A DNA stretch of 35,496 bases from positions 1 to 35,496 of IMG/VR virus record IMGVR_UViG_3300048924_000188; one strand, given 5' to 3'. Made by a program: the position numbers and the translations under genes. The notes under the pieces are model-generated. The model saw only the letters and a list, made by a program, of their open reading frames with translations, was not told where the DNA came from and did not search any database. Shown in pieces: positions 1,681 to 33,200 of this stretch. Positions within the stretch are counted from its first letter, which is position 1; each line of letters opens with the position of its first letter. Source of the stretch: a virus.

Positions 1681-2241
1681 TTAAATGTATCTTTCAATGA
1701 TAGGTAGTCCTTGTGCAAGATCAAAATCTTGGCATTCGAAATCGAACAACCTAAAAAACCTGTAAGTATAAAAACCTTTTTGACTATTATTTTTAACAAC
1801 GTATTTTGTTATAGATAGATTTTCTAGCTCTATATTTATTCTGGTTATGTGTTTGTTATATGCATCTAGATTTGGATGAATGAATTTATAGGTTGACTTA
1901 TTGAAAATTCTTTTTTTATGATAACCATCAACTATAAATTTCACACTCGCTTTTTTTATTTTCATATTGCAGCGCTTGCAAGCGATGCTTAAATTTTTCG
2001 GGGAAAACATGTATTTAGCGTAAAGTGACTGAGGGAGTATATGCTCTACATCAATAACAAGATCGAACTCCCCCTTAAAAGAACGTTGGCAATAACAGCA
2101 TCTCAGACATTTATCTTTAAAATGTTTTTTTATATTTTTTTTTACACCCGCAAGCTTCTTGTTATACCATACATCACCACCTTCAGCAATCGAACGGCGT
2201 ATTGCTGACACATCGCCAACTGTATATTTAAGTTTAGCCAT
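1681..2241 (-). CDS. ptuB: HNH endonuclease, PtuB-like
   Basis: A 186-residue protein with an HNH nuclease core: zinc cysteines around C45-C51 (KCLRCCYC), DVEHILP at 64-70 with the catalytic His67, N83, and a second cysteine pair C88/C91 followed by N92. This is the compact HNH type paired with ABC ATPases in Septu defence systems and with some retrons. Its start overlaps the end of the ATPase gene by a few bases, so the two are translationally coupled. The DNA is visibly more AT-rich than the phage core, which suggests late acquisition. The ATPase is expected to sense phage and the HNH protein to cleave DNA or another nucleic acid. Substrate and trigger cannot be read from sequence. Confidence 0.8.
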   Translation of the reverse strand: MAKLKYTVGDVSAIRRSIAEGGDVWYNKKLAGVKKNIKKHFKDKCLRCCYCQRSFKGEFDLVIDVEHILPQSLYAKYMFSPKNLSIACKRCNMKIKKASVKFIVDGYHKKRIFNKSTYKFIHPNLDAYNKHITRINIELENLSITKYVVKNNSQKGFYTYRFFRLFDFECQDFDLAQGLPIIERYI

Positions 2242-3412
2242 TCTTTCTAATCTCTTTGATTATACTTGGCACCGAATTAATTATATCAATATGCTTAGGG
2301 TCATCAGTGATTATTTTAAATTCATTCAATTGATGATAAAGCCCAGCCTCATCAATATTATTACTTAGTGTATCGTTTATTAATTTATTAATTAGATAGC
2401 TAAAATATCGACTTTCAGGCGTTATTATTTGAAAAACATTTGTGAGTATCTCTTCAATGTTTTTTGAATGGTGATCCGCAAGCTTTTTTATATTCCCGTT
2501 TATGGTTCTATAAATGCTTACGTTAGATTCTGAACTATGAGCACCTGAAATGACTATCGGTGCATGAGTAGCACATATAACATTTGGTTTATATTGATAA
2601 AATAAATCATTTATATTTTTAAAGTATTCACGTTGCCACTTAGGATGAAGACTATTTTCCGGTTCATCAATAAGTATATATGCCCTTTTATCAATATGCA
2701 TTGAGATCCATGATAACGATGTTAAAAGTGTTAGCTCACCAGAACTAGCGTCATTTAAATTTATTTTATCGCCGTTTTTGAAAAGTGATATTTTTACATC
2801 ACTTAGAATTTTTAATTTCATTAAATGATATTTCAGTCTTAAAACAGAAAGTAAATACTCTGTTTCTAAATCAAGACCAAGGTTTTCAAAATCTATTACC
2901 ATCTCGACTTTTGGATTTTTTTCGATACTAGACCACATTCCTGGTATGGTTTTGCTTTCTGGTAGCTTTGATATAAACGCCCTTACTCTTGATATATCAT
3001 ATATATTTAGGGATTTCGTATACTCTAAAGAGTTTATTTTATTAAAAGAGTCAGAGCTATTTAATAGCTTAAATGATACTTCGATCTTACTATCGAAGCC
3101 AATATAAGCTAATACCCGTCGTAGAGTTTCAAATGATTTTCCATTATCAAGTTGTGATTTTTTTGATGATAAAGCATCTATCATAACATCACTTACGTGA
3201 TTTATTTTATTTGATGGAAGTCTAAAGTAATTTTTGATACGCAAAGTTGGGAATTTGTTATGAATAGTGTTTGCAATCGTTATGATGCTTGCATAAGGCT
3301 CGGAGTAAGCTATTTCTTGTGCTAATGCAGCCATGAGCCTGCTTTTTCCTGCGCCATTCTCACCAATTAAGAGATGATTATTTGATTGTTTGCTTAGTTT
3401 TGGCAGAAACAT
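2234..3412 (-). CDS. ptuA: ABC-type ATPase, PtuA-like
   Basis: A 392-residue ATPase with Walker A GENGAGKS (17-24), an ABC signature SSGE (223-226), Walker B ILIDEPEN (246-253) and H-loop ATHAP (281-285). This is the SMC/OLD-type ABC fold of defence ATPases such as PtuA. The start at 3412 has AAGGGG just upstream, and an in-frame stop (TAA) lies nine codons upstream, so the unusually short N-terminus before Walker A is real. It overlaps the HNH gene downstream in a two-gene operon. No Toprim nuclease domain is visible, so it is not an OLD nuclease and needs the HNH partner. It lies between ogr and attL, where lysogenic-conversion cargo is tolerated. Confidence 0.82.
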   Translation of the reverse strand: MFLPKLSKQSNNHLLIGENGAGKSRLMAALAQEIAYSEPYASIITIANTIHNKFPTLRIKNYFRLPSNKINHVSDVMIDALSSKKSQLDNGKSFETLRRVLAYIGFDSKIEVSFKLLNSSDSFNKINSLEYTKSLNIYDISRVRAFISKLPESKTIPGMWSSIEKNPKVEMVIDFENLGLDLETEYLLSVLRLKYHLMKLKILSDVKISLFKNGDKINLNDASSGELTLLTSLSWISMHIDKRAYILIDEPENSLHPKWQREYFKNINDLFYQYKPNVICATHAPIVISGAHSSESNVSIYRTINGNIKKLADHHSKNIEEILTNVFQIITPESRYFSYLINKLINDTLSNNIDEAGLYHQLNEFKIITDDPKHIDIINSVPSIIKEIRKNG

Positions 3413-26143: not shown

Positions 26144-26839
26144 TTAATCTTTAACCTCAACATATGATGAAGAAAACCAAATTGATTTCTTACCGTTAAT
26201 AACTTTAGATATAGGATTACCTTTTTCATCCATCGCATTAGCACTAAAAGTCACGTAGTAAATCCCCGGAATTTTTGTAGAAACAAGATAGCTCAGACTT
26301 CTTTCAGCAGAGATAGGAACCGAAATATCATACATGGGTACATTTTCAGTCTCCTTTCCATTGGCATCTTTAGAGTGTAAAAGGGCTAACTCTTCATAGT
26401 AATTCGGATGATATATTTCCATCGCAACTTGTTTTGCCCCCTCAGATGCCACACGACTAACAGTGAGTGATTCCTTGCTTAATCTTACATAGATCCTTTG
26501 ATTACTACTATTCTTTATGGTTACGACAGGTTTGATGTAAAATACACCTTCAATTTTAACAACCTTCACATCTACATTGAAAAAGGTCGCTTCTGTGTTT
26601 TTTATTCTGTTCGTAAGTTCTGTGAGGTCAGCCTCAGCTTTATCCCTCTGATGCAAGGCATCAAATGTATACCCTCCCCATAAAATGGTGAATATTGCAC
26701 ACAATGAAATGACAACATTATTGAATTGATCATGGGTCCTATATATATCTTTAAATTTGAAAATAAAGAACAGACTCACTAATAAAAGCAAGCTTAATAT
26801 AAACCAATGTTCTGAGATAAATTTAATCACCATGGTCAT
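26144..26839 (-). CDS. Two-helix membrane protein of the Q-cos accessory pair
   Basis: A 231-residue protein I do not recognise. Two hydrophobic helices lie near the N-terminus (about 12-28, FILSLLLLVSLFFIFKF; and about 41-58, VVISLCAIFTILWGGYTF). A charged coiled-coil-like segment (about 60-85) follows, then a beta-rich domain (about 90-231) containing VFYIKPVVTIKNSSNQRIYV and PGIYYVTFSANAMDE, which looks like an immunoglobulin-type sandwich. Its first ATG overlaps the stop of the upstream gene (ATGA), so the pair is co-translated. AT-rich relative to phage genes. A membrane effector or anchor for its partner is the simplest reading, but unproven. Confidence 0.72.
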   Translation of the reverse strand: MTMVIKFISEHWFILSLLLLVSLFFIFKFKDIYRTHDQFNNVVISLCAIFTILWGGYTFDALHQRDKAEADLTELTNRIKNTEATFFNVDVKVVKIEGVFYIKPVVTIKNSSNQRIYVRLSKESLTVSRVASEGAKQVAMEIYHPNYYEELALLHSKDANGKETENVPMYDISVPISAERSLSYLVSTKIPGIYYVTFSANAMDEKGNPISKVINGKKSIWFSSSYVEVKD

Positions 26840-27903
26840 TCACCAGAATGTCTAGCATCTCCATCTTCAGGGAAGTTTATACCTGAATCAGGTTCTCGGC
26901 TTGTAGGATTTGCATCGACAAAACTCCTGTTTTGTCTTTTTACATGTAATGCAAGGCTTTGGGATACTCTTTCAAAATTCAGCCCGCTTTTTGCAACTTC
27001 ACTTTTACCAGCTATGAAAGGTAAAACTTCCTCTCTGATTTGGTTATCTTCAACGGATGCAAAGGCAACGTTTTGATTGAAAATAGCCCCCATGATCATC
27101 AGGAAAGCAATCCCCGCTATTCGATTTCGGGTTTTGAATTGCAGCCAAACATCTCCAGGAGACATTAGCATCTGTTGTGCTGTTAATGATAACTGGCCAT
27201 CCTCGTAGAACCTTTCCATATGCGATTGGACAACATCATTTGAAAACTCACCCTCAAAACCCTCGCCAATCAATAATGCTATGACCTGAACCCGGTCAAC
27301 AAGCTCAGACAATTGTTTTAAGGTATGATGCTTAATTGCATCATGCTGTTCAATTCTCAAACTTGTGCAGAAAGTCTCATCCGTAATGAAAAAAGACATC
27401 AACCAGTGAAGAACTTCGTCAGACTTCTCTCCCAAAGAAAAAACAGCCTGATATGCGTTAAATGATTTCTGGAGGGCTAATGGCACATCCCTTCTGCGAA
27501 TATGTTCACCCCATGTAACACTTCGCCTTACATGAAACCCATCATTACCGCGTTCATTAGAAATTTGTTCTCGTTCAAAATAAGGTAGTGATGTAATTAC
27601 TCCAGGAACAACAACATCACCAGATAGAGTGAAAACCACATCGCCGACACGCATATCAGCAATAAAACTCTCAATTTGGGTATAAATATTCCTTGAAGCA
27701 ATGTTATCAAGCCCATCAATCCTATCTGAAATATCTTCTCTAGTTATTTCAGTTTCGAAATCGATTTGTCCTGGGGATAAACCATCTAAGTGAGCAGTTG
27801 CAATTACATTGTTTTCAAGGAAGTAAGAAAAATGCTTGTACCTAACACCCGGTCTAACGACCCAACATTTTGCTGTCAAATCAACACGCTGGACAGTAAT
27901 CAT
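26836..27903 (-). CDS. PUA/EVE-like domain protein with membrane segment
   Basis: A 355-residue protein. Residues about 11-150 follow the pattern of the PUA/EVE-like domain found at the N-terminus of Mrr-type restriction proteins: WVVRPGVRYKHFSYFLENN, then FIADMRVGDVVFTLSGD, VVPGVITSLPYF, and FHVRRSVTWGEHIRRRDVPL. Such domains bind modified bases or nucleic-acid ends in several defence systems. No nuclease motif follows. Instead there is a helical region (160-245), a hydrophobic stretch RIAGIAFLMIMGAIFNQNVA (261-280) and a polar tail. Start at 27903 has GAGAGA upstream. It leads a two-gene operon, is AT-rich, and lies between Q and cos, a cargo position in P2-like phages. Family assignment is from pattern memory only. 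Confidence 0.72.
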   Translation of the reverse strand: MITVQRVDLTAKCWVVRPGVRYKHFSYFLENNVIATAHLDGLSPGQIDFETEITREDISDRIDGLDNIASRNIYTQIESFIADMRVGDVVFTLSGDVVVPGVITSLPYFEREQISNERGNDGFHVRRSVTWGEHIRRRDVPLALQKSFNAYQAVFSLGEKSDEVLHWLMSFFITDETFCTSLRIEQHDAIKHHTLKQLSELVDRVQVIALLIGEGFEGEFSNDVVQSHMERFYEDGQLSLTAQQMLMSPGDVWLQFKTRNRIAGIAFLMIMGAIFNQNVAFASVEDNQIREEVLPFIAGKSEVAKSGLNFERVSQSLALHVKRQNRSFVDANPTSREPDSGINFPEDGDARHSGE

Positions 27904-28005: not shown

Positions 28006-28167
28006 AATTCCTAAACCTTATCTATAGCTCCTGTTTTGATTTCCAGTGCTAATACATATACTTACGGCTTGCGAGCTTAAGATTGGTGTTAAATAGATAA
28101 ATGACTGGAATCTAAAAAATTCTAAGTGAAATTAATTCTAGTGATGAGTTATAACCATTCGCGCGCA

Positions 28168-28186
28168 GTGCTATCCCCACCTCGCC
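28168..28186 (-). other. cos: cos site (19-nt cohesive-end sequence)
   Basis: The minus strand reads GGCGAGGTGGGGATAGCAC followed by TGCGCGC. P2 cos is GGCGAGGCGGGGAAAGCAC followed by TGCGCGC: two differences in 19. Staggered cutting here would give P2-type cohesive ends. In the 28200-28312 flank, GCAGGTGCATCAG-like and TGCACCTGATGC repeats and a CGCTGGCGCTGG run resemble terminase-binding cosB repeats. The 27904-28313 interval has no gene beyond this and the inverted repeat. Confidence 0.88.
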
Positions 28187-28313
28187 TGCCCGCTTAAGGG
28201 GTCGCTTTTCATGCAGGTGCATCAGAAGCCCCGAGCCGCGCCTGCGCTGGCGCTGGCTCGCAAACGCTGGAATCAAAAATGAATGCAAACTCATGCACCT
28301 GATGCGTGCACCA

Positions 28314-28427
28314 CTAGAAAAGTGAAAAGTTTGGGTCAAATTCCTCGCTTTTTGCCTCTACTTTCTTCATTGAGGCCAGAAAATTCATACCATCATTTAG
28401 CGATACCGGTCGCTCGTACTCAATCAT
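28314..28427 (-). CDS. Short ORF downstream of the SOS promoter (second part)
   Basis: A 37-codon frame, MIEYERPVSLNDGMNFLASM then a Lys/Glu-rich tail ending DPNFSLF. It is in the same frame as the 33-codon ORF upstream, separated only by a TGA (28470-28472) and 14 codons of protein-like sequence (GGGYWLGRTFDGVF). It may be an independent short gene or the C-terminal half of one gene interrupted by TGA. I recognise no family. Confidence 0.45.
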   Translation of the reverse strand: MIEYERPVSLNDGMNFLASMKKVEAKSEEFDPNFSLF

Positions 28428-28469
28428 AAAAACACCATCAAAAGTGCGCCCCAGCCAGTACCCGCCGCC

Positions 28470-28571
28470 TCACTCTTTAGGTCGCTGAAAGAAAACCCAC
28501 CCTCCTGGACAGTAATGCTCTAAGGTCTCACCCCGATAGACCACCTGAAAATCCAAGTCATGACCCGCCAT
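28470..28571 (-). CDS. Short SOS-regulated ORF (first part)
   Basis: A 33-codon ORF starting MAGHDLDFQVVYRGETLEHY and ending PKE, 17 bp downstream of a LexA box on the same strand. A G-rich stretch just before the ATG could serve as the RBS. In phage 186 and Fels-2 the corresponding interval carries a LexA-repressed antirepressor (Tum), so position and regulation fit a prophage-induction gene. The peptide is far shorter than Tum (about 146 residues) and I cannot claim homology. Readthrough of the TGA would join it to the following ORF, giving about 85 residues. Confidence 0.5.
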   Translation of the reverse strand: MAGHDLDFQVVYRGETLEHYCPGGWVFFQRPKE

Positions 28572-28587
28572 AGCCCCCCCGCATAAA

Positions 28588-28607
28588 TACTGTATACACA
28601 TACAGCA
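28588..28607 (-). promoter_or_regulatory. LexA box / SOS promoter
   Basis: TACTGTATACACATACAGCA contains CTGTATACACATACAG, a full CTG-N10-CAG LexA operator with the preferred alternating TA core. On the minus strand a TTGCTA -35 lies 17 nt before TACAGT, inside the operator, so LexA would block the promoter. It is upstream of the short ORFs toward cos and downstream of gene A. Confidence 0.87.
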
Positions 28608-28792
28608 TTTATAGCAAGTATGCAGGCGAAATGCTAACGCCTCGCCGGGCTCGTTGTTCAATACCACAGGCACTGAAAGAGAGTTTCAACACCGGTGCTG
28701 TTCTTACAGTCACCGTGGTGGCCGCCATGTTTACCGATGTGATCGCATATGATTTCGGATTACTGATGTAGCTACATCGGCGATGGTTGTTT

Positions 28793-31087
28793 CTAACTAC
28801 TCTCCTCTTGCATTGAAAATCCCGGCCACCCATCAGCAGCCGCGTATTTGAATTTTTTATCGCCATAAATCACTGTTGCCCCACGCGTCAGCGCGTCGAG
28901 CTCCCACCGTTCCGTGGTAATGCCCTCCAGAGCTAAATCGAAACGAATTTTTGCGACGCGATCCCTTTCGGGTTTTGTCATCCTGGCTGATGGCGCTTGC
29001 TCGCTGGTTCTGAGCGGCGCATTGCTTCTTTGCTGCCGATGTTTGCGCGGTGCACCAGCCTTTAACGCCTCGTTAAGCACCTTCACGACGTCCGGCTCAT
29101 TCCAGCCGATAACCTCGCGCTCAATCAGATTTAACACCGCTGCGGCTTGCTCAGACGGTGTGGGGGTCATAACTGGATCGCCACCGCCGGTGAGCTTTCC
29201 ACAGTTATTGACAGGACTCCGAGGCGCGGCAGAGCCGCTTTTTAAGGTCAAAGGCTCAACGGCCAAAACCTTTGGAACGATGCGCCATTCGGCTGTACGG
29301 GTTACATGGACACGATGAGCCCCGAGATGAGGGGCATAAATCCCGACAACCCTCTCGATATCTTCCTCGTATTCGTTGACCTCATCAGTCACCTTACGGG
29401 CGACCCTGACGGCCTGAGCATCACGCGGCATGTTTGCCCCACCCTGCGCGATGATGTACCGCTCAAAGTCCCCCTCATCTGCAGCGACTCGCGCGGCCTC
29501 GACCCTGTCGTCAAACTCGCAGGCAATACTCACCCCACGCGGCAGTTTGCGCAGTTCGCGGTAAGCTCCCATCGTCGGGAGACCAATCGGTTTAAACTGA
29601 GGGATACGCCATGTTGACGCCCATGCGGTGACGGCTGCGGCCGTATCTTTCAGAGGCTTGCCGGTGTCGTGATCGAGCTGACCGTCGAGCGCGTAACCGT
29701 CGATATTTTTTGCAATGTATTTAGCGATATAACCCGCCGCTCCGCCCTGATTAAGATGGCGTGACTCAAAGCGCTGTTTTGACGCGCCCTTTTCGTGTCC
29801 GTCCTCTTTGAGGGCATAACGACGCATAATTTCGTTAATGGCTTTACGCTGACCGGGTTTGCAAAAAAGCATCATGTGCCAGTGTGGCGTGCCGTCGTGG
29901 TGCGGTTCGACAACGCGCATCCCGTAAACCTCTAAATCGTTATCTTTGAAAGCTGTACGCATCAGGCTCCAGATTCGGCACAGATAGCGCTGGCCGTCTT
30001 TGGGTGTAAATGCTGTTTCGTTCCAGCCGTGATTGAGCTGCACAGTTTTGCTTTCACCTTTGCCAACCTGACGGGTCGGGTGATACTTCGATGGCGTGGT
30101 CAGCGTGATAAACATCCCCACGTCACCAACGCTGGTCGCGTAGCGTTCAATCCCGGCGATAGTGTTCATCAGCTCCATGCGGCGTATTTCAGGGTTAGAA
30201 ATACTCCCCATGACCTTACTGATGAGGTCGATACGTTCGCCGGTGACTTTGTTTTCCAGTTCGCATGATTTGAGGTATTCAAGATTAGCCAGGCGGCGCG
30301 CGTGAACATCGCGGATCGCCCTTTTGCTTGCGTAAGGTGAGCGGTCTTTATTGACCTCACCGGCAGCGATGAGCAGCGCCTCGCGCCAGCGCATCCGCTG
30401 TGCCTTAAGCTGATTAACCCACCATTCATCTTTAATCAGTCGTGAAATAGAGGAAAATGCCTGTCGGATCGTTATCTGACCCTTACGGTATTTTTTCCAG
30501 TACATCGGGGTGATGTTAAATGCGCGAGCAACACCGGCCACTTGCCCGTATAGGTGCGACTGAGCTTCATCGGTGAAAAGTGTCTCTTTCCCGCCGTGAG
30601 CATCCGCCCAGGCGTCGCTTAACTCCTCGTATTTGCTCCAGAGCTGAGAGGCAATTCTGGCCGCAAATTTCCTGAGCTCTTTGTCATTCATATCTGGTAA
30701 GCGCGCATACTGGTCGCGCTCGGACAGAAAACCAATCGAGGCGGATTCATTCATCCCGCACAGATCATTAACACGCTCAAGACGCGGCAGCAGCTTGCGC
30801 TCAAACGTGTTTTTGAGGAAATACAGCCCACCCAAAGGGCTCTTTTTACGGCGGATGAAGTTATAACGCGATGTAAACAGCGTTTGCAGGAAAAACGGCA
30901 GACGGTCAATCCGGTTTAAAACCCCTTGCACCTGACGGAGTTCGGCACGTGTAAGGGGTCTGTCGCGGCCAATGGCCTCTTTAGTGACGTTATTCCAGGG
31001 ATAAGCACCAACGAATGAATCACTGGTTCCCTTCAAAAATGGTGGTGGTGGCGAGGGGGCAACACGCCCCCGAGGTTCGTTGGACAT
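28793..31087 (-). CDS. A: Rolling-circle replication initiator gpA
   Basis: A 764-residue P2 gpA homologue. Start at 31087 (MSNEPRGRVAPSPPPPF), directly after the preceding gene's stop. HUH motif TPHWHMML with histidines near 402-404. The twin active-site tyrosines are in GYIAKYIAKNIDGYAL (about Y453 and Y457; Y450/Y454 in P2), which nick the origin and rejoin strands. The phage origin lies inside the A gene in P2. Acting with gpB and host Rep/DnaB it starts unidirectional replication. GC-rich, typical of the phage core. The 14-bp palindrome GATGTAGCTACATC at 28765-28778 follows its stop. Confidence 0.96.
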   Translation of the reverse strand: MSNEPRGRVAPSPPPPFLKGTSDSFVGAYPWNNVTKEAIGRDRPLTRAELRQVQGVLNRIDRLPFFLQTLFTSRYNFIRRKKSPLGGLYFLKNTFERKLLPRLERVNDLCGMNESASIGFLSERDQYARLPDMNDKELRKFAARIASQLWSKYEELSDAWADAHGGKETLFTDEAQSHLYGQVAGVARAFNITPMYWKKYRKGQITIRQAFSSISRLIKDEWWVNQLKAQRMRWREALLIAAGEVNKDRSPYASKRAIRDVHARRLANLEYLKSCELENKVTGERIDLISKVMGSISNPEIRRMELMNTIAGIERYATSVGDVGMFITLTTPSKYHPTRQVGKGESKTVQLNHGWNETAFTPKDGQRYLCRIWSLMRTAFKDNDLEVYGMRVVEPHHDGTPHWHMMLFCKPGQRKAINEIMRRYALKEDGHEKGASKQRFESRHLNQGGAAGYIAKYIAKNIDGYALDGQLDHDTGKPLKDTAAAVTAWASTWRIPQFKPIGLPTMGAYRELRKLPRGVSIACEFDDRVEAARVAADEGDFERYIIAQGGANMPRDAQAVRVARKVTDEVNEYEEDIERVVGIYAPHLGAHRVHVTRTAEWRIVPKVLAVEPLTLKSGSAAPRSPVNNCGKLTGGGDPVMTPTPSEQAAAVLNLIEREVIGWNEPDVVKVLNEALKAGAPRKHRQQRSNAPLRTSEQAPSARMTKPERDRVAKIRFDLALEGITTERWELDALTRGATVIYGDKKFKYAAADGWPGFSMQEESS

Positions 31088-31088
31088 A

Positions 31089-31352
31089 TTATTTAAAAGC
31101 GTCCAGACATAGCTTCCCCAAGCGTTCAATCCGAGCTTCCAGAGCTGAGAAGCCAGTAAGATCGCTGGTCAAAAGATCATGCAATACCAAGCCTGAGACA
31201 AGCTTAGGGATAGTTGGGTAGTAACCCACAACGTCTAACCATTCCTTACCTTCATTCTTCCCGGATGTAGCGGTCTTTTTTTCCTGCAAAATGAATTGAT
31301 AGCGGTCACTGGTGATGACGTATTGGTTATTAATCTCGATGCGTATGCTCAT
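31089..31352 (-). CDS. Small early protein, DUF5405-like
   Basis: An 87-residue protein, MSIRIEINNQYVITSDRYQF then a Lys-rich stretch and PTIPKLVSGLVLHDLLTSDL. This small early gene is usually found directly upstream of A in P2-like phages; I recall it as DUF5405. Its stop lies one base from the A start, so it is co-translated. No known role. Confidence 0.78.
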   Translation of the reverse strand: MSIRIEINNQYVITSDRYQFILQEKKTATSGKNEGKEWLDVVGYYPTIPKLVSGLVLHDLLTSDLTGFSALEARIERLGKLCLDAFK

Positions 31353-32896: not shown

Positions 32897-33175
32897 TTAC
32901 CGTGAAGGTTGCCCTAAGCCGAGCCACATCAACCAACCATCGCGAATCTCTCTAGGACGGCTTTCATATGCCATCTTCATACCGTTGTTCCATGCCGGAA
33001 GGTAGACCCAATACTCCCCAGCTCTTCCAGTAGCAGATTGTGGGTCGGTCATTTCAATGATTGGTAATTTGCCTTTCTCAATCATCCCTTTTACGGCCGC
33101 CGGGGTTTTACCTATCAGGCGTGCAAACTCCTGATATGGAACTGCGTCAGTTGCGCTCTCTAACGTCTTCTTCAT
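32897..33175 (-). CDS. cox: Cox, excisionase and early-promoter regulator
   Basis: A 92-residue P2 Cox homologue: TDAVPYQEFARLIGKTPAAV and MTDPQSATGRAGEYWVYLPA with RPREIRDGWLMWLGLGQPSR at the end. Cox represses the lysogenic promoter and directs excision by binding attP arms. Start at 33175 (MKKTLESATDAV) with a GAGAAG upstream; the GTG at 33184 is too close to the RBS. It faces C across the switch region. Confidence 0.95.
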   Translation of the reverse strand: MKKTLESATDAVPYQEFARLIGKTPAAVKGMIEKGKLPIIEMTDPQSATGRAGEYWVYLPAWNNGMKMAYESRPREIRDGWLMWLGLGQPSR

Positions 33176-33200
33176 CTGGTACACTTCTCCGTTAGCGTTT

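Follow-up and report, generated by a model that had tools for sequence, protein, structure and literature searches.

A putative LexA-controlled gene of the phrog_2100 family, interrupted by a stop codon, downstream of gpA in a P2-like prophage

P2-class prophages are the textbook non-inducible phages. The finding of a LexA operator in one of them raises the question of which gene stands under its control, and of whether this gene could connect such a prophage to the SOS response. We have examined this in a viral record of 35,496 bases (here called the window, meaning the whole stretch of DNA that was analyzed), which has a P2-like architecture including an integrase. The initial annotation had assumed a C-type repressor for this phage, and a P2-type C/Cox immunity region is indeed present (Table 1). 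It had also recognized that this slot is the one that in 186-like phages encodes Tum. The phage 186 reference bears this out, tum being located there downstream of gpA under a LexA promoter, and the window gene likewise follows gpA under a LexA promoter. No remnant of Tum, TumA or DinI was detected in the window by tblastn.

Some other accessory genes of the window can be mentioned here. Between gpA and the capsid genes, which is the accessory-gene site of P2, there is a 355-aa protein (26836-27903, minus strand) that matches phrog_10226 and the PADLOC candidate defence model PDC-S02 (E = 5.7e-10), and adjoining it a 231-aa protein (26144-26839, minus strand) belonging to no family. A 392-aa protein that matches several phage families of unknown function (2234-3412, minus strand) is located beside a 186-aa HNH-endonuclease-like protein (1681-2241, minus strand), and this pair is possibly a two-gene defence cassette.

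Table 1. Location of the interrupted gene, its putative control elements and the main replication and immunity genes in the window.
Feature	Position	Strand	Evidence
phrog_2100 gene, 85 codons plus stop	28314..28571	-	profile match of the read-through protein; intact relatives 89-98% identical
5' part: 33-codon ORF, TGA included	28470..28571	-	
In-frame TGA, codon 34	28470..28472	-	sense codon in relatives, variable position
3' part: 37-codon ORF from an internal ATG	28314..28427	-	
LexA operator (SOS box)	28588..28607	-	17/20 matches to the palindromic consensus, CTG-N10-CAG core intact, 0 expected by chance
Candidate extended -10, TGcTATAAA	28608..28616	-	inspection; TTAGCA (28632-28637) as candidate -35
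gpA replication endonuclease	28793..31129	-	Pfam Phage_GPA, E = 1e-111; phrog_91; immediately upstream of the phrog_2100 gene
Cox, P2 type	32897..33184	-	Pfam Phage_Cox, E = 3e-42
P2 C-type immunity repressor, 99 aa	33295..33594	+	phrog_147, E = 2e-41; HTH_3

The operator reads TACTGTATACACATACAGCA on the plus strand and 5'-TGCTGTATGTGTATACAGTA-3' on the minus strand. The whole 35.5-kb record has no second strong LexA box, and the number expected by chance is 0.00 for the long pattern (up to three mismatches) and 0.17 for the core pattern, so that the operator of the initial annotation holds. An automatic scan gave no sigma-70 promoter at this place. By eye, an extended -10-like sequence directly adjoins the operator, with a weak candidate -35 located 18 nt upstream of it, and the -10-like sequence is kept in the close relatives L029-L031. 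An overlap between the LexA operator and a promoter is therefore plausible from inspection of the sequence. Farther upstream, the spacer GTTGAACAACGAG...GCGAGGCGTTAGC (28638-28680) is found ahead of the gene, here and in L011 and L015, in loci of the tumA-dinI type as well as in those under direct LexA control; it may be an exchange junction or a terminator. Another ORF of 85 codons (28609-28866) was considered and discarded as probably not a gene, having no family match, overlapping the 3' end of gpA and lying upstream of the operator.

What follows the operator had been described as a 33-codon ORF, one of a group of micro-ORFs encoding peptides much too short to be Tum. The ORF exists and starts 16 nt downstream of the LexA box, but the separate peptides do not stand, since this ORF and a 37-codon ORF share a common frame and are the two ends of a single 85-codon gene with an in-frame TGA at codon 34. 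The shortness that had been noticed is that of a gene with a stop codon inside, and the window illustrates how one such codon makes an ordinary gene resemble a micro-ORF pair. When read through, the 85-aa protein matches PHROG family 2100 (PHROGs v4) over positions 1-85 of 85 (E = 9.2e-38), the frame of the window copy being broken at the TGA. Close relatives, 84-98% identical, were found in nine viral contigs and one Enterobacter genome. In those whose alignment covers the start, codon 34 is a sense codon. The residue at this place varies among relatives, with Cys in most and Tyr, Asn or Ser in the rest. Among ten relatives (44 pairs) the mean dN was 0.057 and the mean dS 0.537, and for this reason we consider, from the pattern of substitutions, that the protein is real and constrained and that its intact versions are under purifying selection.

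The comparison with L029 is informative about the age of the interruption. Codons 35-85 of the window gene had a dN of 0.0 and a dS of 0.098, without a single amino acid change, so the stop must have arisen recently, unless it is an artefact. A sequencing or assembly error, with the gene intact in the real phage, would agree with this intact-like 3' half and with the fact that, within the window lineage, the TGA appears in this record only. We consider it unlikely, given that the window gene also differs from its three nearest relatives by one missense change and in the ribosome-binding site. Besides, a degenerate search for TGA at codon 34 retrieved two contigs besides the window, L110 (to which L043 belongs) and L111, which form an independent and more decayed second lineage, with a second stop in L043 and a frameshift in L111, indicating that loss of the gene does occur. 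The presence of Cys at codon 34 in most relatives is what Sec/Cys pairs usually show and, together with the conserved 3' half, could point to a UGA recoded as selenocysteine or leaky enough to yield the full-length product. This is very unlikely, as the position is variable, the RNA fold after the UGA was no better than that of shuffled sequences (z 0.13) and the other UGA lineage has accumulated further stops or frameshifts. Even harder to accept is that the 33-residue peptide has a function of its own; its ORF sits under the LexA box, but a free peptide of this length is found in no relative apart from the visibly decayed second lineage. We favor that the gene in this record was probably broken recently and is probably non-functional in this prophage. 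In the model described below, the helix and two of the four strands come after the TGA, which should leave a 33-residue fragment devoid of most of the predicted fold.

Looking at the family as a whole, a LexA box was found upstream of 76 of 80 viral phrog_2100 loci, compared with only 2 of 78 control stretches taken downstream. With two further seeds included and duplicates merged, the set comprised 138 distinct loci. A box was present in 135 of them, between -33 and -42 relative to the ATG in 94 and at a more distal upstream position in 41. The box of the window gene is at the same close distance from the ATG as in those 94. Where the box is distal, tumA and/or dinI are in most cases located between it and the phrog_2100 gene, which in Cartapus and Dagavirus is the third gene of a p95-type SOS operon. 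The annotated genomes of Cartapus and ST13-OXA48phi12.1 illustrate the arrangement, with the order gpA, a 62-aa TumA-like gene, dinI and the phrog_2100 gene. The box also precedes the family in SSU5, the P22-like phage SI8 and the Serratia phage BZS1. The genomes carrying the family include P2-like, 186-like and P22-like phages, SSU5 phage-plasmids and others; 443 plasmid records contained it, many of them of about the size of SSU5. All this points to a family under SOS control. It seems to be widely conserved, uncharacterized and apparently undescribed, no paper on phrog_2100 having been found in the literature searched, which left most subscription journals out of reach.

Some observations concern the borders of these genes. 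In L040 and L009, which are on the same contig, the N-terminus of the phrog_2100 relative has been replaced by upstream sequence, so that the relative is fused to a dinI-like reading frame that is itself truncated. Downstream of the window gene, the segment 28112-28313 is GC-rich and contains a 12-nt inverted repeat. A search with window positions 28100-28870 matched many P2-like prophages of E. coli, in pieces, and the alignments suggest that the flank of the gene may be common to P2-like prophages even where the gene is absent.

The protein itself gives few hints about function. We found no match in Pfam, NCBIfam or PADLOC, no sequence match in PDB and no convincing fold match by Foldseek on PDB and BFVD, this last result being weak evidence with a model of only moderate quality. 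The AlphaFold model (pLDDT 80, pTM 0.67) shows four strands plus one helix, and its ends are of low confidence. The C-terminal tail (mean pLDDT 59-65 over the last 15 residues) is acidic and conserved, and in it the motif [FD]Dx[DN][FYL]xL appears near the end in 72 of 103 unique proteins and FDDDFxLx is terminal in 34. This tail recalls the C-terminal peptide of SSB, and a disordered acidic end might compete for SSB-binding repair proteins during SOS. The conservation of the tail despite its low-confidence prediction, the recurrent motif and the expected SOS timing would fit such mimicry. SSB tails, however, require a terminal Phe, and only 44 of the 103 unique members end in this residue, the others finishing in T, D, Q, I or V. 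An acidic tip closed by Phe is thus not the rule in the family, and we see the mimicry as improbable.

Could the intact protein be an antirepressor? In the initial annotation this was proposed for a short peptide, and the equivalent proposal for the full-length protein is that, by binding to the C repressor of P2 type, it makes an otherwise non-inducible prophage answer to SOS, which is the part played by Tum with the 186 CI. The location in the tum slot and the LexA control speak in its favor. So does the situation in the P2-C records examined, all of which are devoid of DinI and, in most, of any other gene with a strong LexA box; each has one strong box, with the exception of G007, adjoining the phrog_2100 gene wherever its position was followed, and Tum is absent there as well. 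This exception (L035 in G007), a P2-C relative without any LexA box, speaks against the proposal, and so does the distribution of the protein, whose grouping does not follow repressor type. The copies of L029 (P2-C) and L032 (186-CI) are 94% identical, and those of L045 (P2-C) and L046 (186-CI) 96%, whereas the identity of L045 to the other P2-C copies does not exceed 73%. A tblastn or profile search detected tumA and/or dinI in those 186-CI records that were examined, therefore these phages already own an antirepressor module. Relatives also co-occur with self-cleaving repressors of the Peptidase_S24 type (L105 in G033). Finally, the full read-through protein showed no similarity to Tum or TumA, with no BLASTP alignment and an hhalign probability of 0.5%, and against the Gifsy-1 gene beside dinI, whose identity as GfoA was deduced from the gene order in PMC3121763, the probability was 0.1%. 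Since near-identical copies (93-96%) are found both in P2-C phages and in phages that have their own Tum beside the unrelated 186 CI, a repressor-specific antirepressor appears unlikely from these comparisons, and the short peptide version lacks support for the additional reason that the gene has 85 codons and a stop. We would give a role in the induction of P2-C phages, and likewise direct binding to C, a small chance. Nor would a short antirepressor have been new in kind, as small LexA-controlled ones are already known, among them TumA (60 aa in PSP3), GfoA and GfhA (PMC3121763).

The explanation that we prefer, with a probability of roughly 0.7, is that phrog_2100 is an autonomous LexA-repressed accessory gene of 85 codons that works independently of the repressor, and that it is probably inactive in this record. 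RecA filaments would trigger the cleavage of LexA and the gene would be transcribed. The intact protein would then act, in the course of prophage induction or of the SOS state, on a general target in the host or in DNA metabolism, the prophage's own repressor not being its target. In 186-like phages the gene is the third of the p95-type SOS operon, after tumA and dinI, and in those of P2-C type it stands alone with its own LexA box, while here the TGA at codon 34 would leave just the fragment. There is a variant in which the intact protein is an SOS effector, indifferent to repressor type, that makes P2-C prophages responsive to damage through a shared host factor, e.g., a protein of repair or replication to which the acidic tail binds. 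We regard this as unlikely. Should it be true, phrog_2100 would be the only SOS-controlled gene of these P2-C prophages.

A group of P2-class prophages thus keeps a putatively LexA-controlled gene in common with 186-like and P22-like phages and with SSU5-type phage-plasmids. Its wide retention by phages whose immunity systems are unrelated suggests some general role in cells that have suffered damage, for which modulation of DNA repair, control of superinfection and evasion of defence are candidates.

Several known systems can be compared with this gene. With phrog_2100, a family of unknown function, it shares a match over the full length, although the window copy is interrupted. The p95 operon of phage 186 (p95-tum-orf97) is also located after gpA under a LexA-controlled promoter; in the window, however, Tum and DinI are missing, the protein is unrelated and the immunity is of P2-C and not 186-CI type. 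The known LexA-controlled small phage proteins include 186 Tum, PSP3 TumA/TumB, N15 AntC and the Gifsy antirepressors (PMC3121763). Like PSP3 TumA and the Gifsy proteins GfoA, GfhA and GftA, phrog_2100 is a small phage protein, but it has no detectable sequence similarity to TumA and, unlike these antirepressors, is not linked to one repressor type. As for the DinI family (PF06183), phrog_2100 does not match it and the P2-C records are devoid of it, yet both are small and under SOS control, and in many genomes they are encoded by neighboring genes.
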